Source of the DNA: Actinomycetota bacterium | GTDB taxonomy: Bacteria > Actinomycetota > Acidimicrobiia > IMCC26256 > PALSA-610 | DNA length: 64,000 nt | Assembly (NCBI GenBank): GCA_005773635.1 | Contig: SXHN01000074.1 | Coordinates: 62,001 to 126,000, forward strand | Direction of reading: 5' to 3' | Shown: in pieces, positions 7,964 to 27,812 of the stretch | How positions within the stretch are numbered: position 1 is the stretch's first letter | Layout: each line of letters starts with the position of its first letter | The notes under the pieces: generated by a model | The model's input: the letters and a program-made list of their open reading frames with translations, nothing else | Databases searched by the model: none | Told to the model about the DNA's origin: nothing | Translations under genes and position numbers: made by a program

Positions 7964-8800
7964 CTAGGGCGCACCAATGGTCAGTGTCGTGCCGGTCGTA
8001 AGCGAACTCAGAATCGGCGAGGTGCCATCCTGCACGACGATGTAACGGAGGTTCGTTACAAGGCTGCCGGTCGCTTCTTCGACTACCGCCTGGCAGCCAA
8101 GCGCGGCAGGGTCAACGGCGTAGCCCTGGATAACTGCGCGGGCTGCCGCTGTGCCACCGGTCAGGATTTCGGTCACCATTTCGGTGCCGTCCCAGTCGGT
8201 GACGATCGTTTTGTCCTTGAGCACCGGGGTGTATGCAACGTTGCTCGAAATCCGGGCGCCGACCGCATTGCCCTTCACCACGATGCCAGCAAGGGTCGTT
8301 GTATCTCCGGGCGCGCCGGTTGGGTTCGCGGTGCTGACGTAAGCATCGGTCTTGGAAAGATCAGAGAATGTGTAACTCGTCTTGCCACTCAATGGCCATT
8401 CCCCAACGTTGCCGTCGGAAACGCAGTCGAGTGCCGGCGAGGTGACCTTGGAACTCCACTTTGTGATCGTTTTGGTGCCAGCGGGCGCGGTGGTCAAAGC
8501 ACCCGTTGCCACGGTTTGCGACGTCGTGCATGAGCCTCCGATGGTGAGCGGTGCGGCATTCAGGGAATGCACGCCTTTGGTGCTCACTGCGGCGTCATGA
8601 TTTTGTGCAGTGATCCCAGCGGCTTTGCCGTCACCGGGCCACAAGAAGGTGCTTTTCGCCGAACCGATACCGCGGGTGCCACTGCACGTGCCAACCGTTG
8701 TGACAACGGCGTCGGCCGACTCGGGCATCGCCGTGGCGACCGACGCGGCGGCAAGCCCGCCTGCGATCGCGATCCGAACCGCGTGAGAAACGAGCTTCAT
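7964..8800 (-). CDS. Secreted protein of unknown function, tandem paralog A
   Basis: The ATG at 8800 is preceded by GAGGAG at good spacing, which sets the start although the frame is open further upstream. The 278-residue product begins with a Sec signal peptide (KLVSHAVRIAIAGGLAAASVATA, cleavage near SADA). The mature domain begins VVTTVGTCSGTRGIGSAKSTFLWPGDG and ends in TLTIGAP. It contains four or five Cys and many beta-strand patterns, and no enzyme motif. It is about 70% identical by eye to the next gene (8934-9764). Secreted beta-sandwich proteins of this kind are usually structural or binding proteins, but that is an inference. It has its own terminator hairpin downstream. Confidence 0.82.
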   Translation of the reverse strand: MKLVSHAVRIAIAGGLAAASVATAMPESADAVVTTVGTCSGTRGIGSAKSTFLWPGDGKAAGITAQNHDAAVSTKGVHSLNAAPLTIGGSCTTSQTVATGALTTAPAGTKTITKWSSKVTSPALDCVSDGNVGEWPLSGKTSYTFSDLSKTDAYVSTANPTGAPGDTTTLAGIVVKGNAVGARISSNVAYTPVLKDKTIVTDWDGTEMVTEILTGGTAAARAVIQGYAVDPAALGCQAVVEEATGSLVTNLRYIVVQDGTSPILSSLTTGTTLTIGAP

Positions 8801-8933: not shown

Positions 8934-9764
8934 TTATGGAGCACCAATGGTGAGCGTGCCACCCGTGACAGCCGACAACAAGATCGGCGTGGTGCCGTCT
9001 TGGATCACGACGTAACGGATGTTTGTGGCTTCGATAGCTGGCTCAACAACAACCTGGCAACCGAGGGCGGCTGGGTCAACCGCGTAGCCCTGGATAACTG
9101 CACGTTCTGCGGCGGTGCCGCCAACCAGGATTTCGGTGACCATTTCGGTGCCGTCCCAGTCGGTGATGATGGTCTTGTCCTTGAGCACTGGCGTGTAGCC
9201 AACGTTGTTGGCGACCTGCGAGCCAACGGCCACACCTTTGGTGACGATACCGACGAGGCTCACCGTGTCGGCCGGCGAACCGGTCGGGTTGGCGGTGGCG
9301 ACGTAGGCGTCCATCTTGGTGAGGTCGGTGAACGCAAAGCTGAGCTTGCCGTTCAGCGGCCATTCAGTAGAGTCGGTGTCGCCGGCGCAGTCTGAAACCG
9401 GTGACGTCACCTTGGAGCTCCACTTCAACAGGCTTTTGGTGCCTGCTGGGGTGGTGGTGAGTGCGCCGGTGGCGACGGCCTGCGTGAAGGTGCAAGATCC
9501 ACCGATGGTGAGCGGCGCGGCGTTGAGGGCGTGGGTGCCCTTGGTGCTGACCGCAACGTCGTGGTTCTTGTCCGTGATGCCAGCTGCTTTGCCATCGCCC
9601 GGCCACAAGAAGGTGCTCTTGGCCGAACCGATGCCGCGGGTGCCGGTGCATGTACCAACCGTCGTGACGACGGCGTCTGCTGAGTCCGGAGCAGCGATCG
9701 CCACTGAACCGGCCGCAAGGCCGCCAGCAATAGCTACGCGAACTGCGTGAGAAACAATTTTCAC
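8934..9764 (-). CDS. Secreted protein of unknown function, tandem paralog B
   Basis: The 276-residue sister of the adjacent downstream gene. I take the GTG at 9764 as start: AGAGGAG lies about nine bases upstream and the first residues (KIVSHAVRVAIAGGLAAGSVAIA) match the paralog's signal peptide exactly where it begins. The rest keeps the same Cys positions and motifs (GTCTGTRGIGSAKSTFLW, LTIGGSC, YTPVLKDKTIITDWDGTEM, DPAALGCQVVVE, TLTIGAP). Differences are spread evenly, so the duplication is not recent and both copies seem functional. A long 5' region precedes it. No catalytic residues are recognised. Confidence 0.82.
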   Translation of the reverse strand: MKIVSHAVRVAIAGGLAAGSVAIAAPDSADAVVTTVGTCTGTRGIGSAKSTFLWPGDGKAAGITDKNHDVAVSTKGTHALNAAPLTIGGSCTFTQAVATGALTTTPAGTKSLLKWSSKVTSPVSDCAGDTDSTEWPLNGKLSFAFTDLTKMDAYVATANPTGSPADTVSLVGIVTKGVAVGSQVANNVGYTPVLKDKTIITDWDGTEMVTEILVGGTAAERAVIQGYAVDPAALGCQVVVEPAIEATNIRYVVIQDGTTPILLSAVTGGTLTIGAP

Positions 9765-10158
9765 GTGAATATTCTCCTCTGTCGCTTCCAGACCAGGTTG
9801 GCCACTAGCCCTGGTCATTAGGATGCGAGGTCCGCCTTGTACCGCACGCGTCACGCGTCCGTTGCCCGCGTGTTGTTCGGTCCTTGGTGTTCCCCCCAAG
9901 TCCGGAGATTCCATCGGTTGATGTTGCCTCCGGCCTCTCGACAATCGCTTGTCGATGTGGCCGTCGCCATGTTGGTGCGCGCGAGTGCCGCTTGTCAAGC
10001 ATTGGAAAGGAAAGTTTTTGCCAGCGTTCATTCCGAATGGAGGTGGCGGGGCACGTGTGGCTGGTGTGGTTGGCGTGGTTCGTGAGGTCGGTCACGGCGT
10101 AATGTGACGGGTCGCTAGGCAGGCAAAATTGTTCTCAACCGATGGTACGTTGCGGCCC
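9765..10158. other. Intergenic region between divergent genes, with two inverted repeats
   Basis: These 394 bases separate the minus-strand secreted-protein gene from the plus-strand sugar dehydrogenase gene, so promoters for both should lie here. No convincing coding frame is seen. Two inverted repeats stand out: arms GACCAGG and CCTGGTC at 9791-9797 and 9810-9816, and the compact TCGACAA/TTGTCGA pair at 9938-9955 with a 4-nt loop. Either could be an operator or an RNA hairpin in the leader of 8934-9764. I cannot place a sigma-factor promoter with confidence. Confidence 0.5.
9938..9955. promoter_or_regulatory. Perfect 7-bp inverted repeat with 4-nt spacer, possible operator
   Basis: The bases read TCGACAATCGCTTGTCGA, a perfect palindrome of 7-bp arms around TCGC. 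It is roughly central in the divergent intergenic region, about 174 nt ahead of the secreted-protein start and about 204 nt ahead of the dehydrogenase start. The size suits a dimeric repressor site, but no regulator is encoded nearby, so the role is speculative. Confidence 0.3.
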
Positions 10159-11499
10159 ATGAATGCCTCTTCTCCGGAATCGCCGAACAGTTGCTTGGGA
10201 GCTGCAGCCGCAGAATTACTGCACCGGCTCGGCGATCGGACGGCACGGGTCGTTGTGGTTGGTCAGGGCTACGTCGGCCTGCCGGTCGCTATGCGGTCGG
10301 TGGAAGTCGGCTTTACCACGACTGGTTTTGAACTCGATCCGGGTCGCCTCGCAGCCTTGCGGCGCGGAGAGTCGTACGTCGAGGATGTACCTACAAGCCA
10401 GCTACAGGCGGCACTCGCGAGCGGATATTCGGCGACGGATCAAGCTAACGATTTTGCTGGGTTTGACGTTGCTGTGATTTCGGTGCCCACGCCGTTGCGC
10501 GAGGGTGTACCCGACCTGAGCTTTGTCGAAAGTGCGTCCGCGTCGCTAGCCGAGGTTATGCGCCCCGGTTGCGCGGTGATCTTGGAGTCCACCACGTATC
10601 CCGGCACCACCGAGGAACTTGTACGACCGATTCTTGAGGGGAGCGGTCTGGAATGTGGCGTTGATTTCTTCTTGGGCTACTCGCCTGAACGCATCGATCC
10701 CGGCAACGCGAAATGGGGATTTGTCAACACGCCAAAGGTGGTCTCCGGAGTTGATGCCGCGTCCCTGCGGGTGATCGACGCGTTCTTTAGCGCACTCGTG
10801 GACCGAACTGTCGCAGTGGGTTCGCCCGCGGAAGCCGAATTGGTGAAGCTCTTGGAGAATACGTTTCGCCACGTCAACATCGCGTTGGTCAACGAACTCG
10901 CCATGTTTGCCGCCGACCTCGGTGTCGACATCTGGCGCGCTATCGACGCAGCGGCAACAAAACCCTTTGGTTTTATGCGCTTTACGCCGGGGCCAGGAGT
11001 CGGCGGCCACTGCTTGCCGGTCGACCCTTCGTATTTGTCGTGGCAAGTCAAACGGCGATCAGGCCGACCGTTTCGATTCGTGGAACTCGCCAATGATGTG
11101 AATGACCACATGCCGGATCATGTGGCAGCGCGGGTTGCTGCGCTGCTCAACTCGCACGGCCGAGCGGTCAACGGCACCAAGATTTTGTTGCTTGGGCTGA
11201 CCTATAAAGCCGGCACCTCCGACTTTCGGGAATCGCCCTCCATCGTGGTCGCGGAACGGCTCGCCGCGTTGGGCGCTGAACTGACGGCCTGTGATCCGCA
11301 CGTGCTGCCCAGCGCAATATCGCGGCTGCCCTGTCCGCTGGTCGATTTCAGCGCAGTGAACCTTGCGGCTGCAGACCTGGTGGTGACGCTGGTCGATCAT
11401 CCCGAGTTCGACGTACAAACCATCGCCGCAGCGTCGGTATTGGTGTTCGATGCCAAAGCGATGCTGCGCGGCCATCAATTTCGAGGTGAAACGCTCTAG
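10159..11499 (+). CDS. Nucleotide-sugar dehydrogenase, UDP-HexNAc 6-dehydrogenase type
   Basis: This NAD-dependent enzyme oxidises C6 of a UDP sugar in two steps to a uronic acid. The Rossmann loop GQGYVGLP is at residues 35-42, followed by ESTTYPGTTEELV, the substrate loop GYSPERIDPGN, the hinge helix KLLENTFRHVNIALVNELA, and the active-site GVGGHCLPVDPSYL with catalytic Cys285. The combination SPERIDPG plus GGHCLPVDP is typical of the WbpA/WecC group acting on UDP-GlcNAc or UDP-ManNAc rather than of plain UDP-glucose dehydrogenases, although substrate cannot be proved from sequence. I choose the ATG at 10159; a TTG 30 nt upstream is in frame. It opens the glycan region and would supply an acidic sugar donor. 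Confidence 0.9.
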   Translation: MNASSPESPNSCLGAAAAELLHRLGDRTARVVVVGQGYVGLPVAMRSVEVGFTTTGFELDPGRLAALRRGESYVEDVPTSQLQAALASGYSATDQANDFAGFDVAVISVPTPLREGVPDLSFVESASASLAEVMRPGCAVILESTTYPGTTEELVRPILEGSGLECGVDFFLGYSPERIDPGNAKWGFVNTPKVVSGVDAASLRVIDAFFSALVDRTVAVGSPAEAELVKLLENTFRHVNIALVNELAMFAADLGVDIWRAIDAAATKPFGFMRFTPGPGVGGHCLPVDPSYLSWQVKRRSGRPFRFVELANDVNDHMPDHVAARVAALLNSHGRAVNGTKILLLGLTYKAGTSDFRESPSIVVAERLAALGAELTACDPHVLPSAISRLPCPLVDFSAVNLAAADLVVTLVDHPEFDVQTIAAASVLVFDAKAMLRGHQFRGETL

Positions 11500-11625
11500 T
11501 CTCAGACGCTCTCGCGGCACCGCGCACTGGCGGCACATGCCACGTTTGGACCTCCATCCTTGTTGTCACTGGCGCAGCGTGGCATGATGGGCGCCGGAGT
11601 AGGAACATCCAGTGATAGGGCAGAA

Positions 11626-13530
11626 ATGATTCGAAGTTTTGGCGCGCGCGCGGTATCGATGGCTGGCGCCATCGTATTGCTTGCCTCGGCGACGGTCGGT
11701 GGTGCCTATATCGCCAACGCACCATCAGTGCGAGCTACTCCGCCTCCCAATATCGTCGTCATCGAAATCGACGATATGCGTTATGACGAAATGCCGTTTC
11801 TCACTAAGACGTTGGCGGCCTTGCCTGGCACCAGTTTTACCAATTCGTTCGTGTCCACGTCGCTGTGTTGTCCGTCTCGAGCCGGGTTTTTATCCGGTCA
11901 GTACGTGCAAAACCACCTCGTCGTCAACAACAATGCATATAACAACTTCAACCACAACCAAACCATTGCGACGTCGTTGTCGGCCGGCGGGTACTACACC
12001 GCACAACTCGGCAAGTACATGAACGGGTATTCGTGTGGCAAGGCACAGCCTCAGGGTTGGACCGACTGGCAGGCGCTGTGTAAGAACATTTACGGCTACA
12101 CGAACTATTCAATCAATGACAACGGTGTCGTCACGCCGTACGGTTCGACACAAGCTGACTATGTCACTGATGTCTTGGCGGGCCGCGCCGAAGCCACAGT
12201 CGACGCGGCGGTGACGTCTGGGAATCCCTTCTTCATGTGGCTGAATCCCACGGCGCCTCACAGCGGCACCGGTATTCAAGTTGCGGCGCGCTACGTGGAC
12301 AGTTTCAAGCCGTACAACATTCCGCAAGGCGGCGCGTTTAACGAGGCCAATGTTTCCGACAAGCCACTGTGGGTACGTGCGTTGCCGTTGTTGACAGGGT
12401 CGAAAATTAATGGCATCAGCAAGTCGCAAGCAACTCGATTACGCAAGTTGCTCGCAGTCGACGACATGATTGAACGCACGATCAACCGCGTGGCGGCGAA
12501 TGGGCAGATGGCGAACACCATTTTTGTCGTGACCTCAGACAACGGGTTCATGCGCGGCGAACACCGGGTTCCGTTGGGCAAAGACGTGCTGTACCGCGAC
12601 AGCATTGCGGTGCCGCTGCTGATTTCGGGCCCAGGAATCCCAGTCGGTACTAACAGTGCGCTGGTTACGAACACCGATTTGGCCCAAACGATTCAGGCTT
12701 GGTCGGGCACAACGTCTCCGCGCGTACAGGATGGGAGGTCGCTGCTCGATGCGATCGCAAACCAGGATTACACCGGGCGGGCAGTGTTGCACAGCCAAGT
12801 GAACGACATCACGACTCCGAAGCATCCGGGTGGTTGGGCGGTGCAAGCTGATCAGTTCATCTACATCGAGACTGACACCGGCGAAAAGGAGTTGTACGAC
12901 CACGCAGTAGATCCCTTTGAGCTCATCAATGTGCATGGTGACGCGAAATATTCGCCGGTCGTCGCGCAGCTGACGCCGATGCTGGCCGCGCTGAAAACTT
13001 GCAGCGGCGCGACATGTCAGGTGGTGCGGTCGAACATCGCCCCCGTAGCCGAGGTGTCGCCCACCTGCACTGGGGGGATTCCGAGCTGTGATTTCTCTTC
13101 GATTGGTTCACTCGACATTGATGGCAGCATTGCCAGCTATGCATGGGACTTCGGCGATGGCAACACATCTACGAGCGCGAATCCTCACCACGACTACGCG
13201 GCAGGTGGCCCGTACACTGTGGCCCTGACGGTCACCGATAACCGCGGTTCCACCCACACCGTGAATGCGCAAGCCGGTTCCCCCAATACGCCACCTACAG
13301 CTTCGTTCAGCTTCAGCGTTTCGGGCGCAGTCGTCGATTTCGATGCCACCGCGTCGGCTGATGACGGGTCGATCGTTGCCTACGACTGGGATTTCGGTGA
13401 TTCCCAAACTGGGACCGGCTCAAACCCGAATCACGACTACATCAACCCTGGTACGTACACGGTCGTGTTGACGGTTACCGACAACAACGGCGCCAGCGAC
13501 ACTGACACCCAAGACGTGACGATCTCGTAA
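11626..13530 (+). CDS. Secreted sulfatase with two C-terminal PKD domains
   Basis: A type I sulfatase expected to hydrolyse sulfate esters outside the cell. The ATG at 11626 is followed by a Sec signal peptide (RAVSMAGAIVLLASATVGGAYIANA). The alkaline-phosphatase-fold core begins PPNIVVIEIDDMRYDE, with metal-binding Asp49/Asp50. The CCPSR motif at residues 81-85 matches C-x-P-S-R, the signal that converts the Cys to formylglycine. Further metal ligands sit in TSDNGFMRGEHRVPLGKD. Two PKD domains follow (about 470-550 and 555-634, each with WDFGDG or WDFGDS), which usually mediate polysaccharide or surface binding. A longer frame to 11560 lacks support. The gene lies just upstream of the LPXTG protein on the same strand. 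Confidence 0.9.
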   Translation: MIRSFGARAVSMAGAIVLLASATVGGAYIANAPSVRATPPPNIVVIEIDDMRYDEMPFLTKTLAALPGTSFTNSFVSTSLCCPSRAGFLSGQYVQNHLVVNNNAYNNFNHNQTIATSLSAGGYYTAQLGKYMNGYSCGKAQPQGWTDWQALCKNIYGYTNYSINDNGVVTPYGSTQADYVTDVLAGRAEATVDAAVTSGNPFFMWLNPTAPHSGTGIQVAARYVDSFKPYNIPQGGAFNEANVSDKPLWVRALPLLTGSKINGISKSQATRLRKLLAVDDMIERTINRVAANGQMANTIFVVTSDNGFMRGEHRVPLGKDVLYRDSIAVPLLISGPGIPVGTNSALVTNTDLAQTIQAWSGTTSPRVQDGRSLLDAIANQDYTGRAVLHSQVNDITTPKHPGGWAVQADQFIYIETDTGEKELYDHAVDPFELINVHGDAKYSPVVAQLTPMLAALKTCSGATCQVVRSNIAPVAEVSPTCTGGIPSCDFSSIGSLDIDGSIASYAWDFGDGNTSTSANPHHDYAAGGPYTVALTVTDNRGSTHTVNAQAGSPNTPPTASFSFSVSGAVVDFDATASADDGSIVAYDWDFGDSQTGTGSNPNHDYINPGTYTVVLTVTDNNGASDTDTQDVTIS

Positions 13531-13584: not shown

Positions 13585-14358
13585 ATGACCACTCAGCGTG
13601 CGAAACTGCCCCTTGTGGAGCAGGGCGAAAAGAACATCACACGACGCGACGTCGTCAAAGGCGCGGCCAAGGTAGGCGTGGCTGGTGCTTCGATTGCATG
13701 GGCCGCGCCGCGCTTCGACAGCGTCGCGTACGCCTCCGATCACACGGGATCGCCCGAGGAGACGACGACAACTGGCCCCACAACCACGACTGGCGGCGGC
13801 AGTCAGCCAACGTGTCGCATCGACCCGATTGTGTTGAACGTCAGTCGTTTGCCCTACCCGGAGCGCGTAATCGGCACCGGCTGGGCTCCTAGCAGCAAAG
13901 TGAACGTCCAACTTGTGGGTGTGCGTCGGCTCGGTACCGTCACCACAAATCCAAGCGGGAGTTTTGACACCCGCGTCGAAGTCCCCGCCTCGGTCGCTCC
14001 TGGTCAGTATCGCGTAGAGTTTGCTGGTTTTCTTCCGAATGGGCAACCGTATCGATGCTTTCGTGACTTCGAAATTTCGGGGAGCACCGGCACAGCGGGA
14101 ACCACGTCGACGACTCGCAAAACAGAGGTGACCACTTCGCCCACCACAGCGTCTGGCGGCAACTCCAACTCGAATGGTGGCAATGCTTCGGGCAACGGCA
14201 CATCGGGCAATGGCAGCGGCACATTGCCCGACACTGGATCCGATTCGCGCACGCTGCTGCTGGTCGGTGCCGGAGCGGTCGTTGTCGGTCGCTCGCTGTA
14301 TGCACTGCGGCACCGCATTGCGAATGCAGCGGCTGATGGCGAAGCGTACGCGCGCTGA
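13585..14358 (+). CDS. Tat-exported surface protein with LPXTG sorting signal
   Basis: The 257-residue product starts with a twin-arginine signal: ITRRDVVKGAAKVGVAGASI with Arg20-Arg21, then an Ala-rich cleavage region near SVAYA. After a Thr-rich stretch comes one Ig-like or IPT-like beta domain (about 75-155, ending in YRCFRDFEI), then a Thr/Ser/Asn/Gly-rich wall-spanning linker. The C-terminus has LPDTG (214-218), a hydrophobic segment (TLLLVGAGAVVVGRSLYAL) and a basic tail, the layout of a sortase substrate. No sortase is encoded in this window. The 3' end overlaps the first PqqD-like gene by 23 nt, so the two are translationally linked, and this protein is a candidate substrate of that system. 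Confidence 0.88.
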   Translation: MTTQRAKLPLVEQGEKNITRRDVVKGAAKVGVAGASIAWAAPRFDSVAYASDHTGSPEETTTTGPTTTTGGGSQPTCRIDPIVLNVSRLPYPERVIGTGWAPSSKVNVQLVGVRRLGTVTTNPSGSFDTRVEVPASVAPGQYRVEFAGFLPNGQPYRCFRDFEISGSTGTAGTTSTTRKTEVTTSPTTASGGNSNSNGGNASGNGTSGNGSGTLPDTGSDSRTLLLVGAGAVVVGRSLYALRHRIANAAADGEAYAR

Positions 14359-14650
14359 GACGTCAGAGTCTGCGCGCTACCGAGTCAACCCGCAACTGAT
14401 CACCCGTCGCGTCGCTGAATCTACGGTTGTGTGCCTGGCAGCGCACGGATCGTTGCAATCTCGTGCCGTGACGACTCGCCTGGACGCGACGGCCACCGCG
14501 ATCCTCGAACTCCTCCAGAGTCCTCATGATGTTGGGTCATTGACTTCGGAAGTTGCAGACGGATTCGGCGCTGACATTGATGTCGTGCGGGCTGATGTTG
14601 CTGCTGCGCTCCAGGTGTTCGTGCGCAACGATTGGGTGTTGGCTTGTTGA
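14336..14650 (+). CDS. PqqD-like small protein (peptide-recognition domain), copy 1
   Basis: This is a 104-residue cytoplasmic protein of the PqqD/RRE type: a basic N-terminus, two strands (RYRVNPQLITRRV and TVVCLAAHG), then helices LDATATAILELLQ, LTSEVADGF and VVRADVAAALQVFVRNDWV. PqqD-type domains bind a peptide or protein substrate and present it to a modifying enzyme. The ATG at 14336 lies inside the end of the LPXTG gene, and the stop overlaps the TTG start of the nucleotidyltransferase gene (TTGA at 14647). The second PqqD-like gene closes the same set at 16547. No radical SAM enzyme or peptide cyclase is nearby, which argues against classical PQQ or lasso-peptide synthesis. Confidence 0.78.
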   Translation: MAKRTRAETSESARYRVNPQLITRRVAESTVVCLAAHGSLQSRAVTTRLDATATAILELLQSPHDVGSLTSEVADGFGADIDVVRADVAAALQVFVRNDWVLAC

Positions 14651-15729
14651 TAGGTGACAGTGTCGCAGGGATCGCCGGTTTCGGGCTGCGCGGTCATCGT
14701 GGTGGGGCGCACGGTCCGTTTGATGATGGACAATGGCAGGAAATCCTGCACGTAGTAGGCGAACAGCGCATCTTCGGCCTCGCGCTCGCCGCGCAGCGCT
14801 CGGGATTGCTGGCGTTGACCGACGATCAGCAGCGCAAGATTGTTGAGGGTTGCATCGACAGTATGGCGTCGGTGTTACAACTCGAAGCGATGTTGGCTGA
14901 GGTGGCTCGCGGCTTGCGCGGCTCGGGCATCGATTGGCGAGTTTTGAAGGGCCCTGCCAACGCGCATCTTGACTACCCGCATCCAGAGTGGCGGGCATTC
15001 GGCGATATCGACATCATGGTGCACGGCGACAATTTCGACGCCGCTGCGGGCGGGTTGGAAGCTCTCGGGTGCCGGCGCCGATTCGATGAGCCACGACCGG
15101 GTTTCACCGCTCGTTTCGGAAAGGGTGCTTGTTTCGTTGCACCGAATGGCCTTGAGATCGATTTGCATCGTTCTTTCGTCGCGGGCCCGTTCGCGTCGCT
15201 CGGCGCCGACGACCGACTCTGGCGTCGGCCGCAGACGTTTATCATCGGCGATGAGCCGCAATATGCTTTGCCACAGGAGTTGCGGCTTGTGCATGCGTCT
15301 ATGCACGCAGTATTGGGCAAACTCACGCCGAGGTTGGTGCCGTTGCGCGACGTTGCCCAGATTTGTGAGGCCGTCGAGCCTGCTGCATTGATCGATGTTG
15401 CGGAGCAGCTCGGCGTCGTCTCGGTCGTTGCGAGAGCCGTGCTGCAATCGAGTGCGACGTTGCAGCTGGCCGCCCATGGTCCGTTAGCGGCGTGGGCGTT
15501 GAGCTACCAGCCGACGCAACGGCAACGTCGGATGGTGCGCGCCTACACAAATCCACAACGTAGCTACCTCGGCCAAGTACGTGCCGGAGCGCGAGAATTA
15601 CCAGGCATCGCGAACAAGGTGGCGTACTCTCGGTCGTTGATATTTCCCGATCGTGACTATTTGGAACGCAGAGAGGGTTCCTACGGCCGACGGATCGCGC
15701 GTGCCCTCGGCCGAGGCCGCGCTCAATGA
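14647..15729 (+). CDS. Nucleotidyltransferase-fold protein (uncharacterised NTP_transf_5 family)
   Basis: The product is about 360 residues. The core shows WRVLKGPANAHLDYPHPEWRAFGDIDIMVHGDNFDAA: a Lys-Gly loop followed by D-I-D, the metal-binding pair of the minimal nucleotidyltransferase fold. ACFVAPNGLEIDLHRSF supplies the third acidic residue. Family members occur beside HprK-like kinases and PqqD-like proteins in exopolysaccharide or exosortase loci and in some lasso-peptide clusters, and their target is unknown. I favour the TTG at 14647, which forms TTGA with the preceding stop; TTG codons at 14632 and 14644 are alternatives. The stop overlaps the kinase start as ATGA. Transfer of a nucleotide to a protein or peptide is an inference. 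Confidence 0.78.
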   Translation: MIGDSVAGIAGFGLRGHRGGAHGPFDDGQWQEILHVVGEQRIFGLALAAQRSGLLALTDDQQRKIVEGCIDSMASVLQLEAMLAEVARGLRGSGIDWRVLKGPANAHLDYPHPEWRAFGDIDIMVHGDNFDAAAGGLEALGCRRRFDEPRPGFTARFGKGACFVAPNGLEIDLHRSFVAGPFASLGADDRLWRRPQTFIIGDEPQYALPQELRLVHASMHAVLGKLTPRLVPLRDVAQICEAVEPAALIDVAEQLGVVSVVARAVLQSSATLQLAAHGPLAAWALSYQPTQRQRRMVRAYTNPQRSYLGQVRAGARELPGIANKVAYSRSLIFPDRDYLERREGSYGRRIARALGRGRAQ

Positions 15730-16550
15730 CCCCGGAATTCGAGGGCATTGCCACGTATCGCGTGCTCGACACATCGTTTTGTGTGATTTCCGACCACCTC
15801 GATCTGCTGCAGCTTATCGACGGTTTGTACGCGCACTGCGCGGTCGACGGAGTACCCGCTCACATCATTGAGATTGTGAGCGAACCGGATGGTTTCTGTG
15901 TTGCGGTCGACGCAACGGTGCAGCTACGCGGCATTGCTGAGGAAGCGTTGCTCGGGCGTTTCGTATGGGAAGTCAATCGGATGGTCAGATCGACGCCCGG
16001 AACACGGATACTGATACATGCCGCGGCGGTCGAAATTGATGGGCGAGGAGTGTTGCTCTGCGGCGCATCAGGAAGCGGCAAGTCGACACTTGCTTTGGCG
16101 CTGGTAGAGCGAGGCGCTCGGTACCTCAGCGACGAAATCGCAGCAATTGACGATGTGACAATGACTGTGAGCGCATACCCGAAGCCCATCACGCTGCGCC
16201 CTGATTCGTGGGAGTTCGTCACCTCGCTATTTCCTAACTGCCCCAGCGAAGTTGCAGGTTTGATGCGCGACTTGTGGTTTGTAGTGCCGAAATCGGCTTC
16301 TGACGAGACGCGGGCATCTCTCATTGTACTGCCGAATCAGTTGGTCGGAGTCGGCGCCGCGATCGCTGAGGTTGGGGGCGACGCTGCGTTGGTAGCGCTA
16401 TGCGAGAACACCCATGGGCTGCGCGCCGCAGGGGTGCCGATGTTTCGTCGTCTCGCACGAATCGCCCGACAGTCTGGGGCTTTATCGGGTTCCGTACGTT
16501 CGTTGCCTGAGGCTTGTGACGCGATCGAGCGTCGAGTCGCGTCGATATGA
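15726..16550 (+). CDS. HprK-related kinase (P-loop serine kinase-like)
   Basis: The 274-residue product resembles the C-terminal catalytic domain of HPr kinase. ILIHAAAVEIDGRGVLLCGASGSGKST contains the Walker A (GASGSGKST, residues 113-121) preceded by the family's HAA strand. RYLSDEIAAID (133-142) is the counterpart of the HprK YLVADDE segment. The HPr-binding N-terminal domain of true HprK is absent, replaced by about 90 residues of unknown role, so HPr is unlikely to be the target. Families named HprK-related kinase are known next to PqqD-like proteins in exosortase/exopolysaccharide loci. Start and stop both overlap neighbours at ATGA, so it is made in step with the nucleotidyltransferase and the second PqqD-like protein. 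Confidence 0.83.
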   Translation: MTPEFEGIATYRVLDTSFCVISDHLDLLQLIDGLYAHCAVDGVPAHIIEIVSEPDGFCVAVDATVQLRGIAEEALLGRFVWEVNRMVRSTPGTRILIHAAAVEIDGRGVLLCGASGSGKSTLALALVERGARYLSDEIAAIDDVTMTVSAYPKPITLRPDSWEFVTSLFPNCPSEVAGLMRDLWFVVPKSASDETRASLIVLPNQLVGVGAAIAEVGGDAALVALCENTHGLRAAGVPMFRRLARIARQSGALSGSVRSLPEACDAIERRVASI

Positions 16551-16840
16551 GGGTCGACAAGGCGGTTCCGCAATCGATCATTGCTCGGCTTGCAACGGTC
16601 GCGAGTGAGTCGTTCGAAGGTATCGAAGTGGTGTTCGATCCCGATAGCGGCTTGGTACGCAAGCTCAACCGCACAGCGAGTGAGATCTGGCGACTGCTTG
16701 AGGCGCCTTCAACGCGATCGGAACTGATGAGCACATTGAGCGCCAGAACTCCGCAAAATGCCACCCACATAGCAGCGGATGTTCTACGGTTTGTCGACGA
16801 GTTGATCATGTGGGGTCTGGTGGAAAACTTTGACGGATAG
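16547..16840 (+). CDS. PqqD-like small protein (peptide-recognition domain), copy 2
   Basis: This 97-residue PqqD-family protein is less like copy 1 than like standard PqqD. It has a two-strand start (ESFEGIEVVFDPDSGLVRKLN), the helix NRTASEIWRLLEAPSTRSELMSTL, and the closing helix HIAADVLRFVDELIMWGLV. The D-x-x-x-(F/L)-(V/L) pattern in the last helix and the aliphatic residue before the terminal loop are typical. The start overlaps the kinase stop at ATGA and the stop is 9 nt from the next gene. Having two PqqD-like proteins in one operon suggests two substrates or two modification steps. That is inference. Confidence 0.8.
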   Translation: MRVDKAVPQSIIARLATVASESFEGIEVVFDPDSGLVRKLNRTASEIWRLLEAPSTRSELMSTLSARTPQNATHIAADVLRFVDELIMWGLVENFDG

Positions 16841-16849
16841 GGCGAATCG

Positions 16850-17800
16850 ATGTTGAACATGCTGGCGGCATCGGCGCCATTCGACGGAACGACGTTCGGA
16901 TACGGTCTCTTCGCGGGCGCGCTGGCGGTTTTGGTGTCTGGGGTGTTGGCCTGGTGGTTGCCGAATGATCGGCCCGGCACGATCGGCGTGCCGATGGCGA
17001 TCGCGGGGTTCGCGGTGCTTCGTTGGCAGCTCGGTTCGGCGGGCGCTCCGATCGGCATCTTGGCCGCGGCCGGGCTACTCGCGGTTGCGACTGAACTCAT
17101 CGCGAGGGCAACTGCACGGCAAATGCCAGCCGCGTTATTGCTGGTGCTTCCGGGCGCCGCCGCATTCGTGGCGATCGATGTGGAGGGATTGTCGCTTGGT
17201 ACTCGCATCGGTTGTGGATTGGGTGCCGCGGCGACGGCGGTAGCGCTGAGCGATTTTGATCAGCGTCACGAACGGGATGGTCTTGCGGTTGCGCTGTTCA
17301 TCATGTCCTGTAGTGCGCCTTTGATTATGGTGCGCGCCAGCATTGCTGGGCCAGCACTGCTCGGCGCAGTCGTGCTGTTTGTCATCTTGTTGTTCCCGAA
17401 GCCACAGGCTCGCCTGGGCAACGCGGGGTGTGGCGCGATAGCTGCCATGTACTGGTGGGCGATCGCGCTCATCGCGCAAGATATCGGACCACGCGTGGGC
17501 GGCGGGTGGGTTGCAGTTGGCCTTTTGGGCCTTGAGCCGTTGAGTCGTGCCGTGCTGCCGGATTCGATTCGTCGTCAGCTGCGACGAAACGACAAGGATG
17601 CCCGGTGGCTCGTTACCACCACCGCCGTTGTTGCCCAAGGTGCAGTTGTGCTATTTGCCGTTGCGGTAACGGCTCGACAAGCGACGCTCGACATTGCATT
17701 GTTGTCGATGCTGCCAGTAGTGATCCTTGGCGTGTTGCTCTCGACCGTGGTGGTGCCGACGCCACGAAAGAAACGACGATCACGCAGCCGCGAAGTCTGA
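16850..17800 (+). CDS. Multi-spanning membrane protein of unknown function, paralog of 47786-48742
   Basis: The 316-residue product is almost entirely hydrophobic, with about nine or ten membrane segments (for example FGYGLFAGALAVLVSGVLAWWL, GIGVPMAIAGFAVL-like and VVILGVLLSTVVVP) and a strongly basic cytoplasmic tail RKKRRSRSREV. It has no catalytic signature that I recognise. It shares layout and several segments with the product at 47786-48742 (LLGAVVLFVILLFPKP against LVGAVLPLIVLVLPRP, then (L/I)EP(L/I)(S/A)R at equivalent positions). It starts 9 nt after the second PqqD-like gene, so it probably belongs to that operon. Glycan transport or a membrane partner of the modification system are possible roles, neither proved. 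Confidence 0.72.
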   Translation: MLNMLAASAPFDGTTFGYGLFAGALAVLVSGVLAWWLPNDRPGTIGVPMAIAGFAVLRWQLGSAGAPIGILAAAGLLAVATELIARATARQMPAALLLVLPGAAAFVAIDVEGLSLGTRIGCGLGAAATAVALSDFDQRHERDGLAVALFIMSCSAPLIMVRASIAGPALLGAVVLFVILLFPKPQARLGNAGCGAIAAMYWWAIALIAQDIGPRVGGGWVAVGLLGLEPLSRAVLPDSIRRQLRRNDKDARWLVTTTAVVAQGAVVLFAVAVTARQATLDIALLSMLPVVILGVLLSTVVVPTPRKKRRSRSREV

Positions 17801-19336
17801 ATTTCTTTGTTTCTTGCGAATTCGTTCGCTCAACGGCATGGCTAACAGCAGGAAGAGGAACGGCGCGATCTGGGTCCGTTGCCGCGCCAAGATTCCAAAG
17901 TTCGCGAAATTCGAGAACAAGAAAATGAACACGACGAGGTTGACGAACGCGTAAATCATGTAGCCATTCACTCGGCGCAAGTTGCGGGCGATGCGGGGGA
18001 AATTGCGAATCAGCAGTAACCCGATGAAGGTGGATTCAATTGCCGTCGCGAACTCCTGGGGCGACGGGGCTTCCCATGGCATTGGCCGCATGATGACAGT
18101 CCAGGTGGCATACGGAAAGTTGATCGGGTTCGTGATCTGGACCGCGGCGTTGTCGAATTGCGAGCCACCCTGTGACGTGCGATCGTCGGCTTCGGTTTGC
18201 GTCTCTGCTTGCACTTTGGAATCGGTGATATCACCATTGAAATACGCGCTCGCTTGGCCGAGCGTGAATGTAAGAATCGGGATGAAGAGCACGGCAGTGA
18301 CGATTGAGCTCACGATCTGACCCGAAGGGCGCTTGCGCACCACCATCGCGACGGCAGCACCGATCAAGATCACCAACGCCACGTGCGGACGCACGTAGGT
18401 GACCAACACCGTGCCTGCCCCTGCCAGGACTGCACCGCTCAGCGTCGCGTTGGTGATCATCCGAGCGAATCCCAGTGACGCCATGCCGAGCCCAAGAATC
18501 ACAACGGCTTCCTTGCCGAGCGAGGAAGGCCAATACGCCACTGACGGCATGAATAGCAACAAAATCAGATACTTGCGATCTTGACCAGGGGCAACTGTTC
18601 GGCGCATCGCCCGCCAAAACATCAGGTAGCCCAAAAAGCTAAACCAACCGAATATGAAGAACGCGGCCAGCGTTGACGGCGGAATCAGATCGTAGAGAAT
18701 ACCCGTTAGCAAGCGCAGAAAGTTGCTGCCGGTATAACTCTTGTAATTCGGAAGGTGACCTTGCGAAATGAATTCGGTGGCGATTCGCCGACCCTCCACA
18801 TCGTAGGTTTTGGCGTCCGATCGTTCGTAGATCGTGCCGCTGAACGAGATCCAATAGCGCAATAGGCTGGCGAGCAACTTCATCGCGAGACCAGCAACCA
18901 AGATCGGGTACTCGCCATGCATCGTGTCGGCAGCGACGCGTTTTAAGGCAAGTAGCGTGACGGTTCCGAGCACGATCATCACGAATCCAGCAGTGATCGT
19001 CTCGCCGTTGGAGAACGCGAAGCCTCCGGCCAACACCGAGAGTGCCGCGATGACCCCGGCCGCAGTGACCGCAAGCGCCCAACCCGGGGTCCGAACGCCG
19101 CTGTCGCTTGCGTTCGTGCGTGCGGTTACGGCATCAACTTCGGTCGGCGCGGGGCTGAACCGATTGTCGGGATCGAAGGCATCAAGGGTGTGCGCGGAGC
19201 TGGGACGTGCGGTTCGGTCGTGGCCAAGACGGGACCGGCCTCGAGCAGGTGTATCCGCTGGCGTCGCCGGTCGCGGTCGCGCCCGCCCCGAAATAGCCGG
19301 GGTGACGCTGTCGTCGTCGAGCCAATTGCCCCGCAC
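17780..19336 (-). CDS. Large multi-spanning membrane protein, candidate polysaccharide polymerase (Wzy-like)
   Basis: The 518-residue product has a hydrophilic, Pro/Arg-rich N-terminus (about 80 residues) and then roughly eleven membrane segments with one long extracytoplasmic loop near the C-terminus (about 390-450, KVQAETQTEADDRTSQGGSQFDNAAVQ). RSDAKTYDVEGRRIATEFISQGHLPNY after the first segments and the pattern SVAYWPSSLGKEAVVILG are typical of actinobacterial EPS-locus polymerase-like proteins, a highly divergent class. It is 37 nt downstream of the chain-length regulator/kinase gene, where Wzy genes often sit. Function therefore rests on topology and position. Its 3' end overlaps the convergent gene at 16850-17800 by 21 nt. 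Confidence 0.66.
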   Translation of the reverse strand: MRGNWLDDDSVTPAISGRARPRPATPADTPARGRSRLGHDRTARPSSAHTLDAFDPDNRFSPAPTEVDAVTARTNASDSGVRTPGWALAVTAAGVIAALSVLAGGFAFSNGETITAGFVMIVLGTVTLLALKRVAADTMHGEYPILVAGLAMKLLASLLRYWISFSGTIYERSDAKTYDVEGRRIATEFISQGHLPNYKSYTGSNFLRLLTGILYDLIPPSTLAAFFIFGWFSFLGYLMFWRAMRRTVAPGQDRKYLILLLFMPSVAYWPSSLGKEAVVILGLGMASLGFARMITNATLSGAVLAGAGTVLVTYVRPHVALVILIGAAVAMVVRKRPSGQIVSSIVTAVLFIPILTFTLGQASAYFNGDITDSKVQAETQTEADDRTSQGGSQFDNAAVQITNPINFPYATWTVIMRPMPWEAPSPQEFATAIESTFIGLLLIRNFPRIARNLRRVNGYMIYAFVNLVVFIFLFSNFANFGILARQRTQIAPFLFLLLAMPLSERIRKKQRNSDFAAA

Positions 19337-19373: not shown

Positions 19374-21260
19374 CTACTCGGCGTCGGCGTCGTTGTCGTC
19401 GATACGAACTTCGTCGCCGTCGTGATCGTTGTCGATGCGTTTGCCGCGACGGGCGAACCACCCGGGCTTGCGGGCCGGGCCGGCAGCCACAAGTGCGGTG
19501 TCGTCGAGCACGGCGGCCGTTTCGGCAGCGTCGGACCCGGCGGTGCCTACGCCACCCTCGGCCGCCTTGCGAGCTTGGACCACGCCAGTGCGCGAGCCGT
19601 ATCCGTAGCCATACGAGTAGCCGTAGCGGTATCCGTAGCCATATCCGTAGCCATATCCAGGCCGTGAGCTGATGGCGCCAATCAGCGCGATACCCACCAC
19701 TGGTGCGTCGAGGCGTTTCAATTGTTGTGATGCGCGGTTCAGTGCGGCCGATTTTGTCTTGGCGTCGCGGGCCAGCAGCACGACCGCATCGGAGAGATCG
19801 AGCAAGTCGAAGGTGTCGTTGGTGAGCAACAATGGCGGTGTGTCGATGATGACGATGTCGGCGATCTCACGAGCCGCGAGAATCGCGGCACGGCCAGCGA
19901 CGGCAGCCTCGGCCGGAGTGGAGTCGGGGCTTGAGCTGCCGATGAACTCAACCCCAGGGATTGAAGTGGTCTGGGTTGCGGCGTCGAGGTCGACGATTGG
20001 GGCGGACAGGCTGCCGGTGTTTTCGAGGTAGGGCTCGGCGTTGGCACCCAAGAAGCGGTGCAGGCGCTGACGTCGGAAGTCGAGGTCGACGACGATCACT
20101 CGTTTGCCAATTTCGGCGTATGCGGCGGCGAGGTTCGCGCTTGTCGTTGATTTACCTTCGTTTGGTCCTGGTGACGCGACGAGCAACGTACGGGGCTCGT
20201 TTTGGCCGCTTTCCGATTCGTTTGCCAGCCACATCAGCCCGATCGATGTGCGCAATCCTCGATACGAATCGGCCACGCCGGACAGCGGCGAGAGTTGGGT
20301 GAGTACTTCGAAGCGACGACGCCGGGTCGTGGTGACGTGCGGGATTTCGGCGAGCACCGGCAAGCGAGCGGCGGCCTCAGTCGCCGGGATGCCATAGACC
20401 GCGCTGTCGAATCGGCTGATCAAGAACGCGATCAGCGCGCCGAGCAGGAGCCCGAGCAGTAGACCTGCCGCGAGCCGTGGTTTCGCAGTTGTTGGGATTC
20501 CCGAGCTGGCGGCGTCGGGCACAACCTTGACCTCTGCCGATGACGCGCCTGCCGCGTCAAGAATCACCGGGCGTAACTCAACGAATTTACGCCCCTGTTG
20601 CAGCTTGCGGTTGATGTCGCCTGCGGTGCGTTGTGCCAGCACCCGGAGGCCACTTACCTTGCTGTTCGCGAGTGTCCGGCATCTGCGATCGAGGGCTGGG
20701 CAATTGGCCAACTCGATGACGGCCGCGTCGAGATCTGCATTGAATTTGGCCGACTTATCCTGCAGAGCTTTCAGTTCATTTCTGTAACCACTGTCGTAGC
20801 CACTCTGGATCTCGGCAACGAGTGTGTTCGCAAGGTCATCTGCAATCGCCTGCGCGAATTCACGATTTGTCGAAGTCACGGCGATGGTGAGCTGCGCGGC
20901 AACTTGGTCGGGCGTCACGGTTGCTTTTGCTCGCGCGTCACGCGTTACGAAGGTGACGAATTTCTTTTCGCCACGAGCAGTCTTTTCGCCGTTGATAGTC
21001 ACGGCCTGGGCGTCGAAGTGCGATGCGACCTCTCGAGGGACTGGACCGAATGTCGCCTTTGAAACCCATATGTCCCAGTTGCCGATGTTGCGGACAAGCG
21101 AAATCGCGGTGAGGCTCTGGGTCGCTTGGTAGGTGCGTTCTTGCCGCTGAGTTTTGGCGCCGGGCGTCGTGATCCACGCCACGGCCATTGTCGCCGCGGT
21201 GATAATGGCGATGACCCGCCAGCGCCTCCGCAGGGCGATCAAAAACTCCAATGCGTTCAT
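19374..21260 (-). CDS. Wzz/Wzc-type chain-length regulator fused to BY-kinase with alternating Tyr tail
   Basis: From the ATG at 21260 (AAGG five bases upstream) the 628-residue protein has a first membrane segment at about 14-31, an extracytoplasmic region with coiled-coil helix (ANTLVAEIQ...ELKALQDKSAKFNADLD), and a second membrane segment at about 263-283. A cytoplasmic kinase follows: Walker A PGPNEGKST (364-372), Walker A' VVDLDFRR (390-397) and Walker B IIDTPP (471-476). After the kinase, residues 536-554 have a tyrosine at every second position, ten in all. In Wzc and CapA/CapB, autophosphorylation of such clusters controls oligomerisation and polymer length. It is the likely regulator of the locus. 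The C-terminal about 75 residues are acidic and variable. Confidence 0.92.
   Translation of the reverse strand: MNALEFLIALRRRWRVIAIITAATMAVAWITTPGAKTQRQERTYQATQSLTAISLVRNIGNWDIWVSKATFGPVPREVASHFDAQAVTINGEKTARGEKKFVTFVTRDARAKATVTPDQVAAQLTIAVTSTNREFAQAIADDLANTLVAEIQSGYDSGYRNELKALQDKSAKFNADLDAAVIELANCPALDRRCRTLANSKVSGLRVLAQRTAGDINRKLQQGRKFVELRPVILDAAGASSAEVKVVPDAASSGIPTTAKPRLAAGLLLGLLLGALIAFLISRFDSAVYGIPATEAAARLPVLAEIPHVTTTRRRRFEVLTQLSPLSGVADSYRGLRTSIGLMWLANESESGQNEPRTLLVASPGPNEGKSTTSANLAAAYAEIGKRVIVVDLDFRRQRLHRFLGANAEPYLENTGSLSAPIVDLDAATQTTSIPGVEFIGSSSPDSTPAEAAVAGRAAILAAREIADIVIIDTPPLLLTNDTFDLLDLSDAVVLLARDAKTKSAALNRASQQLKRLDAPVVGIALIGAISSRPGYGYGYGYGYRYGYSYGYGYGSRTGVVQARKAAEGGVGTAGSDAAETAAVLDDTALVAAGPARKPGWFARRGKRIDNDHDGDEVRIDDNDADAE
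19599..19655 (-). repeat. Codon repeat encoding ten alternating tyrosines of the BY-kinase tail
   Basis: The coding strand here is a near-perfect 6-nt repeat of GGN TAY codons, broken only by single R and S residues (YRY, YSY). It encodes Y536 to Y554 of the kinase. Such a hexanucleotide tract could gain or lose Gly-Tyr pairs by slippage without shifting the frame, changing the number of phosphorylation sites. Confidence 0.9.
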
Positions 21261-23316: not shown

Positions 23317-24744
23317 TCAGAATTGAAAATATATAAATGGGGTTGGTGCACCACCACTGAACACCAAAATTGCGACTACTGCCGCACCGGCGTAGGCGCC
23401 TTGGAGCCAGGCTGGCCACGCGGTGAGCGGCCGCCACTCGCGACGTCGCCGGTCGATGATGTCCATAGCAAACATGATGCAGAGAAACGCGACTATCAAC
23501 GTGAGATTGGGCCACCATGCTCCGGGGCGAGATCCGAGCAGCCCCGACTTGAATCCCTTGAAGAAATCGAGGGCAGCCTGCAGCGATTCGGCTCGGAAAA
23601 ACACCCATAACACGGTGACCAGGGTGAAGTTCCCAAGGATCTTCAATATCGTTGCGGGTGTAAATCGAAGCGTTTCATCGCGATCGGTGCTCCCGCTGAG
23701 CATCCGATGCACCGACAATGCAGCACCGTTGAGCCCGCCCCAGACGACGAAGTGCCATGATGCACCGTGCCAAAGGCCCCCCAACAGCATGGTGATCATG
23801 AGGTTGCGGTAGGTCTTGGTTCGCGAGCCGCGATTTCCGCCGAGCGGTACGTAGAGGTAGTCGCTCAGCCAACTCGACAGTGAGATATGCCACGTACGCC
23901 AGAACTCGGTGATGTTGCGCGCCAAGTATGGCTGTTCGAAGTTTCGGGCGAGCTCGATGCCAAGGAGTCGAGCAACGCCTCGCGCCATATCGGTGTAGCC
24001 CGCGAAGTCGCCGTAAATCTGGATCGAAAATCCGACGGCGGCGATCATCAGCGGAATGGCGCCTCGGCCATCCGTGCGGCCAAACACATCGTTGACGTAC
24101 CCGACGACGCCGTCGGCCAGTACCACCTTTTTGAACAGTCCGGTGAGGATCAACACCATTGCTGAATAGAAACGCTCTTTGTCGGGGAGGGTTCGCGTTT
24201 TGCGAAACTGCGGCAACATGTGCGCAGCGCGGGTGATCGGGCCCGCTACGAGCTGTGGGAAGAATGCGATGTAAATCGCATAGGTGACGATGTTGTATTC
24301 GGGCTCGCAGCGGCGCCGGTAGACGTCGATCGCGTAGCTGATTTCGTGGAAAACGTAGAAGCTGATGCCGACCGGAAGCGTGAATCGAAGCAGTGGATCG
24401 GCAACTGTGACGTTGATTTTGTCGAGCGCGCTGATCGCGCTGTCGATGAAGAACTCGAAGTACTTGAAGAACCCAAGCACGACGAGATTCACAGCGACGG
24501 AGAAGATCATCCATGCTCGGCGTCGCCGCTCGTCGTCACCCGCAGTATGGATGCGTTGGACCGAAAAGAAGTCGACGATTGTGGTGCCGGCAAGCAAGAA
24601 CAGAAAGCGCCAATCCCAAAACGCGTAGAACGAGTACGAGACCGCCACCAGCAAGAGATTCTGGAGCGTGCGAGTGCGCAGCGCCCAGTACAGCGGAAAC
24701 ACGAGCGCGAAATAGAGCGCAAATTGCAGTGAATTGAACGTCAT
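23317..24744 (-). CDS. MBOAT-family membrane O-acyltransferase (AlgI-like)
   Basis: The 475-residue membrane enzyme would move acyl groups across the membrane to an extracytoplasmic polysaccharide, as AlgI does for alginate and PatA/DltB do for wall polymers. It has about ten membrane segments. The family motifs are present: FWRTWHISLSSWLSDYLYVPLGGNR (from 281) and LGGLWHGASWHF (322-332), the latter holding the conserved active-site His326. The ATG at 24744 overlaps the stop of the SGNH partner gene (ATGA at 24741-24744), and no ribosome site is seen, so translation probably depends on coupling. The pair matches the AlgI/AlgJ arrangement. Confidence 0.93.
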   Translation of the reverse strand: MTFNSLQFALYFALVFPLYWALRTRTLQNLLLVAVSYSFYAFWDWRFLFLLAGTTIVDFFSVQRIHTAGDDERRRRAWMIFSVAVNLVVLGFFKYFEFFIDSAISALDKINVTVADPLLRFTLPVGISFYVFHEISYAIDVYRRRCEPEYNIVTYAIYIAFFPQLVAGPITRAAHMLPQFRKTRTLPDKERFYSAMVLILTGLFKKVVLADGVVGYVNDVFGRTDGRGAIPLMIAAVGFSIQIYGDFAGYTDMARGVARLLGIELARNFEQPYLARNITEFWRTWHISLSSWLSDYLYVPLGGNRGSRTKTYRNLMITMLLGGLWHGASWHFVVWGGLNGAALSVHRMLSGSTDRDETLRFTPATILKILGNFTLVTVLWVFFRAESLQAALDFFKGFKSGLLGSRPGAWWPNLTLIVAFLCIMFAMDIIDRRRREWRPLTAWPAWLQGAYAGAAVVAILVFSGGAPTPFIYFQF

Positions 24745-26855: not shown

Positions 26856-27806
26856 GTGAACGCTCTCCAGGTCACCCCTCAAAGCTCTGTGGCTTCCGCG
26901 GTCGGAGATTCCACGCCGATCGTCATCTTGGGAATGCACCGGAGTGGCACGAGTGCGCTGGCAAAGGTGATGGGGCGCTTGGGAGTGTGGATGGGTAGCG
27001 CCGAATTCGTATCTCGCCGCACGGAGCATGTGCTGCTCCAGGCTTGCAATCAGGCACTACTCAACGGGTACGGCGGGCACTGGAGCGCGCCGCCGCAACT
27101 CGGCACCGAATGGGTGGAAGGCGAGGTCGCGCGTTCGATCGACACGGAGGCCCGCCGAGCACTCGACGATCTTGAGAATCACTCGGTGTTCGCATGGAAA
27201 GACCCGCGAACCTGCTTTACGTTGCCCTACTGGCGTACGCAATTTCAACGCGAGCCCGTTGCGCTCATCTCCTATCGGCATCCCCTTGAAGTGGGCGCAT
27301 CACTGAAAAAGCGCAATGATTTTCTGCCCGGGCATGTGCACGCGCTTTGGGAGAGTTACAACCGAGCCCTGCTTGACGCCGTAGCCGGGCTCCGCACGGT
27401 TGTGGTGTCGTATGCCGATCTCACTCGCGATCCGGTCGCTACGCTGGAAGCGGTGCGGGCAAGTCTCGCAATGTTCGGAATCCGTATTGAGGGTGATCCG
27501 AGCGACGCGGCGCAAGACATCGAACCTGACCGCCGCCACCACGTGTTTGACGAATTGCCCGACAGCACTGTGACTCGCCAACAAATGGAATTGTGGGAGA
27601 CGTTGCGTGCCCTGCCGCAGCACACGGAGCATTTCGTGGTCCCGACTTTGAGCGAGCCGCACGCGGCATCGACGGAACTTCTCGCGCAGCGCGCCGCAAC
27701 GATTCGCGGTGAACGCGCCACCACCGAATTGCAACTCCAGCTGCGTTCGCGTCGCAACTTGGCGCGCACGTTCGTGCGTCGACTTCGCGACCCGAAAGGA
27801 GATTGA
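26856..27806 (+). CDS. Sulfotransferase family protein
   Basis: The 316-residue protein has the P-loop of PAPS-dependent sulfotransferases, TPIVILGMHRSGTSALAKVM (residues 20-40), and the 3'-phosphate region AWKDPRTCFTLPYW...VALISYRHPLEVGASLKKRNDF, where Arg and Ser-equivalent residues contact PAPS. The C-terminal 40 residues are Arg-rich. It would move sulfate to a sugar hydroxyl or amine. The start is a GTG. It lies between a GT2 gene and a GT-A-like gene on the same strand with very short gaps, so it is part of one unit of four genes ending at 29377. Confidence 0.86.
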   Translation: MNALQVTPQSSVASAVGDSTPIVILGMHRSGTSALAKVMGRLGVWMGSAEFVSRRTEHVLLQACNQALLNGYGGHWSAPPQLGTEWVEGEVARSIDTEARRALDDLENHSVFAWKDPRTCFTLPYWRTQFQREPVALISYRHPLEVGASLKKRNDFLPGHVHALWESYNRALLDAVAGLRTVVVSYADLTRDPVATLEAVRASLAMFGIRIEGDPSDAAQDIEPDRRHHVFDELPDSTVTRQQMELWETLRALPQHTEHFVVPTLSEPHAASTELLAQRAATIRGERATTELQLQLRSRRNLARTFVRRLRDPKGD

Positions 27807-27812
27807 ACCGCA

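Follow-up and report, generated by a model that had tools for sequence, protein, structure and literature searches.

A PqqD, nucleotidyltransferase and HprK-like kinase cassette from Acidimicrobiia that may tailor a Tat-exported surface protein

A compact four-gene operon lies at 14336–16840 of the window that we analysed, a 64,000-nucleotide stretch of an Acidimicrobiia genome (contig SXHN01000074.1 of assembly GCA_005773635.1). It encodes two small PqqD-type proteins that resemble the recognition elements (RREs) of ribosomally synthesized and post-translationally modified peptide (RiPP) pathways, and between them an NTP_transf_5 nucleotidyltransferase (NTase) and an HprK-like kinase. On balance, we favour the reading that this is an RRE-guided protein-tailoring cassette and that its substrate is the protein encoded directly upstream, a surface protein with an LPXTG-type motif that is exported by the twin-arginine translocation (Tat) pathway.

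In the mechanism we propose, one or both PqqD proteins would bind the Tat signal peptide in the cytoplasm, through its internal WxxPx[hydrophobic] motif, and bring the protein to the kinase. The kinase would phosphorylate a Ser or Thr, the candidate being S56 just past the signal cleavage site, and the NTP_transf_5 enzyme may then elaborate the phosphate with a nucleotide, a hexose or a sugar phosphate. The modified protein would be exported by Tat, relieved of its leader and held at the surface, where a Wzz/Wzy-like polysaccharide could use it, perhaps as its anchor or primer. We propose this order because Ser in peptides presented by an RRE is a target of HprK-like kinases, and because the phosphorylated Ser of pseudomycoidin receives a hexose from PsmN. 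Phosphorylation of a peptide by an HprK-like kinase, followed by glycosylation through an NTase, is thus an established sequence (PMC9266682). The original prediction, made from the window alone, was that a protein or peptide tied to the surface glycan is the probable target of the set. It is supported in part, by the polysaccharide context, kinase–NTase co-occurrence, PqqD–kinase fusions and the association of a leader motif with the enzymes.

The operon and its enzymes

All four genes are on the + strand. PqqD1 (14336–14650, 104 residues) matches PF05402 with E 1.5e-8 and 35.2 bits (cut-off 23.4), and PqqD2 (16547–16840, 97 residues) matches it with E 5.5e-13 and 49.5 bits; these are the only PqqD domains in the 3.56 Mb genome. 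Between them lie the NTase (14647–15729, or from an alternative TTG start at 14632; PF14907, E 4.9e-28) and the kinase (15726–16550; PF07475, E 3e-10; TIGR04352, E 9e-25). The genes overlap exactly, at TTGA (14647–14650), ATGA (15726–15729) and ATGA (16547–16550). The original prediction had described these four overlapping genes, an NTase with a DID motif, and a P-loop kinase with the HprK core and no HPr-binding domain. Every element of that description holds. The profile searches that it suggested place all four proteins above the Pfam cut-offs (98.8 bits for NTP_transf_5, 40 bits for the HprK C-terminal core), DID is present at 15004–15012, and only the C-terminal core of HprK is matched by the kinase.

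The catalytic residues of the kinase are H98 (16017–16019), the P-loop GASGSGKST (16062–16088) and D136-E137 (16131–16136). H98, G118, K119, T121, G130 and D136 are invariant among 29 aligned kinases and E137 is nearly so; loss of key catalytic residues in relatives, which had been named in advance as telling against the prediction, is not seen. The fourth catalytic position is Glu in more than 90% of the kinases. Lasso kinases have Asp there, their tailoring kinases using His-Lys-Asp-Asp (PMC9266682). The protein does not belong to HprK itself, as it scores 47.6 bits against a TIGR00679 cut-off of 240 and has no N-terminal HPr-kinase domain.

The NTase belongs to PF14907 (gathering cut-off 31.2 bits). 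Its acidic triad D125, D127 and D177 is invariant across 30 aligned NTases, as are K106, G107, R121, H179 and D240 (numbering from the TTG at 14632). Although its profile finds no match among PDB sequences, an AlphaFold2 model (mean predicted local distance difference test score 92.6) matches MenT1 (Z 15.5, root mean square deviation 2.6, 173 aligned residues), ANT(2'')-Ia (Z ~13.7) and FKRP (Z 9.4). As modelled, the protein has a nucleotidyltransferase fold with conserved acidic residues, a fold that does not tell its donor and acceptor.

Kinase and NTase occur together. Among 246 genomes of the class, 54 have both, 6 and 6 have one alone and 180 have neither (Fisher 2e-40, kinship not accounted for; kinase-profile matches were counted up to E 1e-10, weaker ones being treated as generic P-loops). 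Such co-occurrence in a sugar locus would also be expected if the two enzymes formed a small-molecule route, a sugar kinase and a nucleotidyltransferase that supply the polysaccharide with an activated sugar of an unusual kind, and FKRP, a user of CDP-ribitol, is among the structural relatives of the NTase. We consider this route very improbable: the best structural matches are MenT- and ANT-type transferases, and the PqqD fusions to kinase and pseudokinase and the leader association, both described below, would be left unexplained.

The upstream protein and its leader

The proposed substrate, or precursor, is a Ser/Thr/Gly-rich protein of 257 residues (13585–14358, +) whose gene overlaps the start of PqqD1 by 23 nt. 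It has a twin arginine at residues 20–21 (13642–13647), an A-x-A site, and an LPDTG sorting-type motif (residues 214–218; 14224–14238) followed by a transmembrane segment and a basic tail; the matches to the domain models TIGR01409 and Gram_pos_anchor are marginal. Three sortases are encoded elsewhere in the genome, and relatives of the protein are present at loci L030, L031, L034, L035 and L036. The original prediction mentioned this LPXTG protein without proposing it as substrate and held that no substrate was known; we now propose a specific substrate class.

Within the Tat signal lies an RRE-binding-type motif, W39-A-A-P42 (13699–13710), which extends to WxxPxF (W39-A-A-P-R-F). Discrete RREs bind leaders through [Y/W]xxPx[L/V/I/F/A], and paeninodin-like leaders typically have WxxP (PMC13381572); the window motif fits this pattern. 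Between the h-region and A-x-A, Tat proteins encoded next to the cassette have W[AVST][AT]Px[hydrophobic] in common, and RR, W and P are invariant across 19 aligned leaders. Directly after the predicted cleavage site stands G55-S56-P57 (13747–13755), in which S56 is a candidate phospho-acceptor by analogy with Ser3 of the linear polyphosphorylated peptides (LPP).

The leader motif follows the enzymes. A class-wide search found strong leader matches (E up to 6e-7) in 29 genomes, and all 29 encode both kinase and NTase. The same is true of all 16 such genomes outside the training set (p 4.8e-14, kinship not accounted for), and some of the strong leaders are on contigs apart from the cassette (G083, G085, G210, G045). 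Two of the 29 depart from the motif, G054 having no WxxP and G217 having YxxP. As a control, 30 TIGR01409 matches in eight genomes were inspected, and only the window protein carries WxxP. In a phylum-wide search, most of the strong leader matches outside the class adjoin the same enzymes, with kinase/PqqD/NTase genes nearby in G369, G302, G480 and G352 and a PqqD gene in G279; G404 has the NTase and a leader lacking the W. The cores behind the leaders vary, some with LPxTG and some ending in YCCP, a pattern like that of precursor families with a conserved leader. At one locus (L177, G234:C14:8499-10070) three genes with WxxP Tat leaders and differing cores stand in tandem, and two more are found elsewhere in that genome.

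A number of points weigh against our reading. The leader profile was itself built from cassette-linked proteins, the association statistics ignore phylogeny, and 25 of the 54 genomes with both enzymes have no strong leader match. The motif is not strictly confined to the cassette; G484 and G479 (loci L224 and L225) have phospholipase-C-like Tat leaders that carry SWAAPII, and no NTase accompanies them. The leader that carries the motif is soluble in LPP and lasso systems, whereas here the motif stands at the end of the hydrophobic h-region. Conservation of G[ST] shortly after A-x-A is limited to relatives within the family and order, and some leader proteins lack it. Gene content, catalytic residues, co-occurrence, fusions and the tie between leader motif and enzymes are computational results; leader binding, phosphorylation of the putative acceptor, the presumed second step and the role in the glycan are predictions.

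Fusions of the parts in relatives

PqqD is fused to an active kinase in several relatives, N-terminally at L019, L123 and L125 and C-terminally at L074 and L133. In relatives from the order, PqqD2 is extended at its C-terminus by a domain that can be aligned to the kinase from end to end and lacks the P-loop (hhalign 95%, E 8e-9). A model of one such protein (L081, 10458–11606) combines an RRE domain like that of lasso B1 (Z 9.7) with an HprK/PEPCK-like domain (HprK 2qmh, Z 8.1; PEPCK, about 6.5). As modelled, PqqD2 of this type is a PqqD–pseudokinase, an RRE joined to a degenerate HprK-fold domain. The RRE/PqqD assignment of the window proteins is supported by this RRE-like fold of a PqqD2 homologue and by the PF05402 scores of both.

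In two species of one genus (G039/G040), a single open reading frame (ORF) combines a Tat signal, a low-complexity stretch, LPFTG, a transmembrane segment and the kinase (L077, 9508–10866; L082, 6040–7335). In these fusions the leader W is lost and G-S is kept, as would follow if tethering had made recruitment of the substrate unnecessary. Together, the PqqD–kinase, PqqD–pseudokinase and LPXTG protein–kinase fusions support physical coupling of the parts.

Comparison with known systems

LPP (Popov et al. 2026, PMC13381572) resembles the cassette in having a discrete PqqD-like RRE, an HprK-like kinase and an NTP transferase, and also in its capsule-locus setting, conserved [Y/W]xxP leader, variable cores and lack of a cyclase. 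However, LPP comes from Bacillota and the window cassette from an actinobacterial lineage of metagenome-assembled genomes. The genes called in 3160–32383 include no S26 match (SpI-like or SipW-type peptidase) and no MsbA-like ABC exporter. The leader here is a twin-arginine signal, the cores belong to surface proteins whose ends are LPXTG or Cys-rich, and there are two PqqDs, a pseudokinase in relatives and Wzz/Wzy-like partners. Of the LPP leader pattern, YxxPxVLxHQxIxFETxxS in a precursor of 35–200 residues, the window has only WxxPx[hydrophobic], in its Tat signal.

The tailoring enzymes of paeninodin and pseudomycoidin (PadeK/ThcoK and PsmK/PsmN; PMC9266682) share with the cassette the H-K-D residues of an HprK-like kinase, a WxxP leader motif and a nucleotidyltransferase-type enzyme that works on phosphorylated Ser. 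By contrast, no Pfam match to a macrolactam synthetase (C) or transglutaminase-like protease (B2) occurs in 3160–32383, the fourth catalytic residue is Glu rather than Asp, and the proposed substrate is a protein rather than a lasso precursor. Because peptidase, exporter and cyclase are absent, we do not class the cassette as an LPP or paeninodin-like member; by analogy, it probably works like them.

These parallels also raise the idea of a classical RiPP cluster of lasso or LPP type with a small, unrecognised precursor peptide, in which the Tat protein would be irrelevant. Indeed, lasso clusters of the paeninodin type and LPP clusters use PqqD, HprK-like kinase and NTP_transf_5 for tailoring, and they too occur in capsule loci (PMC13381572, PMC9266682). 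Nevertheless, we regard this idea as quite improbable, since a macrolactam synthetase, a B2 protease, an SpI peptidase, an ABC exporter and a radical SAM protein are all missing from the genes called in 3160–32383. As precursors we considered short ORFs with [W/Y]xxP at 12.5–20 kb and rejected them, all being antisense or out-of-frame stretches inside longer genes. A described RiPP cluster with precursor and cyclase, which the original prediction had named as contrary evidence, was sought in these intervals and neither component was found. Its remark that no radical SAM or protease gene is in view stands for radical SAM and for RiPP-type proteases in the same span, and fails for proteases in general, a housekeeping-type dxr–M50 protease pair being present at 3160–5525.

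The closest named kinase family is NCBIfam HPr-rel-A (kinase TIGR04352, PqqD TIGR04353), which likewise has a PqqD partner. The window proteins score below both cut-offs (87.3 against 200 bits and 24.5 against 35 bits), we rejected TIGR04352 membership for the kinase, and none of 55 genomes of the order is over cut-off. The HPr-rel-A system is linked to exosortases; our literature search found no paper joining PqqD and exosortase.

Tat proofreading chaperones of the DmsD/TorD type offer a different parallel, as they are cytoplasmic proteins that bind twin-arginine signals until maturation is complete. They have a helical chaperone fold rather than that of PqqD/RRE, and serve cofactor insertion rather than covalent modification.

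The original prediction called the system undescribed. That holds only in part: paeninodin-like lasso clusters and LPP clusters are already known to contain the trio of RRE, HprK-like kinase and NTP transferase (PMC9266682, PMC13381572), and the papers that we searched did not show the trio acting on wall-anchored proteins exported by Tat. Nor did we find a paper treating RREs and twin-arginine signals together in the literature searched, most subscription titles being outside its reach. The proposed cytoplasmic tailoring of a Tat-exported surface protein by kinase and NTase before export appears undescribed. If our reading is right, RRE-guided tailoring extends from small secreted peptides to ordinary exported surface proteins, and one signal peptide both directs export and, as a leader, recruits enzymes. 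It would also give a testable substrate and function to the widespread, unexplained PF14907 nucleotidyltransferases and to the HprK-like kinases of polysaccharide loci.

The polysaccharide locus

The neighbourhood comparison suggested by the original prediction shows that the cassette recurs in Acidimicrobiia relatives in two gene orders. In arrangement A (the window, L029, L030 and L035) the order is Tat/LPXTG protein, PqqD1, NTase, kinase, PqqD2 and a membrane protein, with Wzy-like and Wzz/BY-kinase genes convergent to the operon. The membrane protein (16850–17800, +) is polytopic, has no family and joins the operon in this arrangement only, with relatives at L029, L030 and L035. The Wzy-like polytopic membrane protein (17780–19336, −) is linked in both arrangements, and beyond it lies a Wzz/BY-kinase-like polysaccharide co-polymerase, a P-loop ATPase with CbiA/AAA_31 domains (19374–21260, −). 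Arrangement B runs Wzz/BY-kinase, PqqD1, NTase, Wzy-like, kinase and PqqD2, and is found in the family at L031, L034 and L036 and in the order at L073, L075, L076, L078–L081, L084 and, at a contig end, L085. L033 holds the first half of the cassette; its kinase (L072) is on that contig too, at a distance of ~30 kb. NTP_transf_5 is present in 13 of 14 family genomes. Kinase, NTase and Wzy-like gene lie within 12 kb in 17 of the 246 class genomes; the Wzy-like family is associated with the cassette rather than obligate.

This setting brings up another explanation, that the cassette acts on the polysaccharide machinery (Wzz/BY-kinase, the Wzy-like protein or a lipid or sugar intermediate) as regulator or primer maker, the Tat/LPXTG protein being a mere neighbour and WxAP a variant of the Tat c-region. 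The tight linkage to Wzz/BY-kinase and Wzy-like genes fits it, as does arrangement B, which puts the Wzy-like gene between NTase and kinase and the LPXTG gene on the other strand. We nevertheless hold it unlikely. A Wzy-like gene is within 12 kb of just 19 of 86 kinase matches, and the family is also present in many genomes without the kinase. Moreover, the leader motif tracks kinase and NTase even when unlinked, and an LPXTG–kinase fusion exists.

For RRE-guided tailoring of the Tat protein, the weakest step is the glycan link, which comes from the neighbourhood. A fuller version would have Tat signals double as RiPP-style leaders, with PqqD/RRE reading WxxP, kinase and NTP transferase priming the wall-anchored protein with a phosphate-linked sugar, and a Wzy-dependent polysaccharide built or anchored there. 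We offer it tentatively, as possible and rather doubtful; if true, a protein–polysaccharide linkage would be primed in the cytoplasm, which might explain how capsule-like glycan becomes attached to wall proteins in some bacteria.

The name Wzy-like reflects topology and position only. One of 21 relatives weakly matches Wzy_C, none matches a relevant NCBIfam model or the PDB, and the window member has no Pfam, NCBIfam or PDB match. The family occurs in 52 of the 246 class genomes with invariant LPS..YWPS..GKEA, VRPH and NFGILARQR-type motifs, and is perhaps an unmodelled Wzy/ligase family. Its N-terminus (RGxWLDD) was considered as a leader and dropped, not being kept in arrangement B. The BY-kinase-like protein ends in a long Tyr/Gly-rich tail of repeats (YGYGYG), and the membrane protein of the operon has a paralogue at 47786–48742 (−).

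Other genes surround the locus. A UDP-sugar dehydrogenase (10129–11499, +; TIGR03026, 375 bits) frequently belongs to the locus in relatives as well. Two tandem paralogues (7964–8800 and 8934–9764, −) encode secreted proteins with no Pfam match, and genes related to them lie close to the cassette at L030 and L031. An MBOAT acyltransferase beside an SGNH/AlgX-like protein (23317–25748, −), kept in several relatives, is likely to serve glycan O-acylation. Finally, two sulfatases and two sulfotransferases (11560–13530, 26889–29377 and 29394–31526) suggest a sulfated glycan; one sulfatase has PKD domains, and WxxP is missing from the Tat leader of the second sulfatase.

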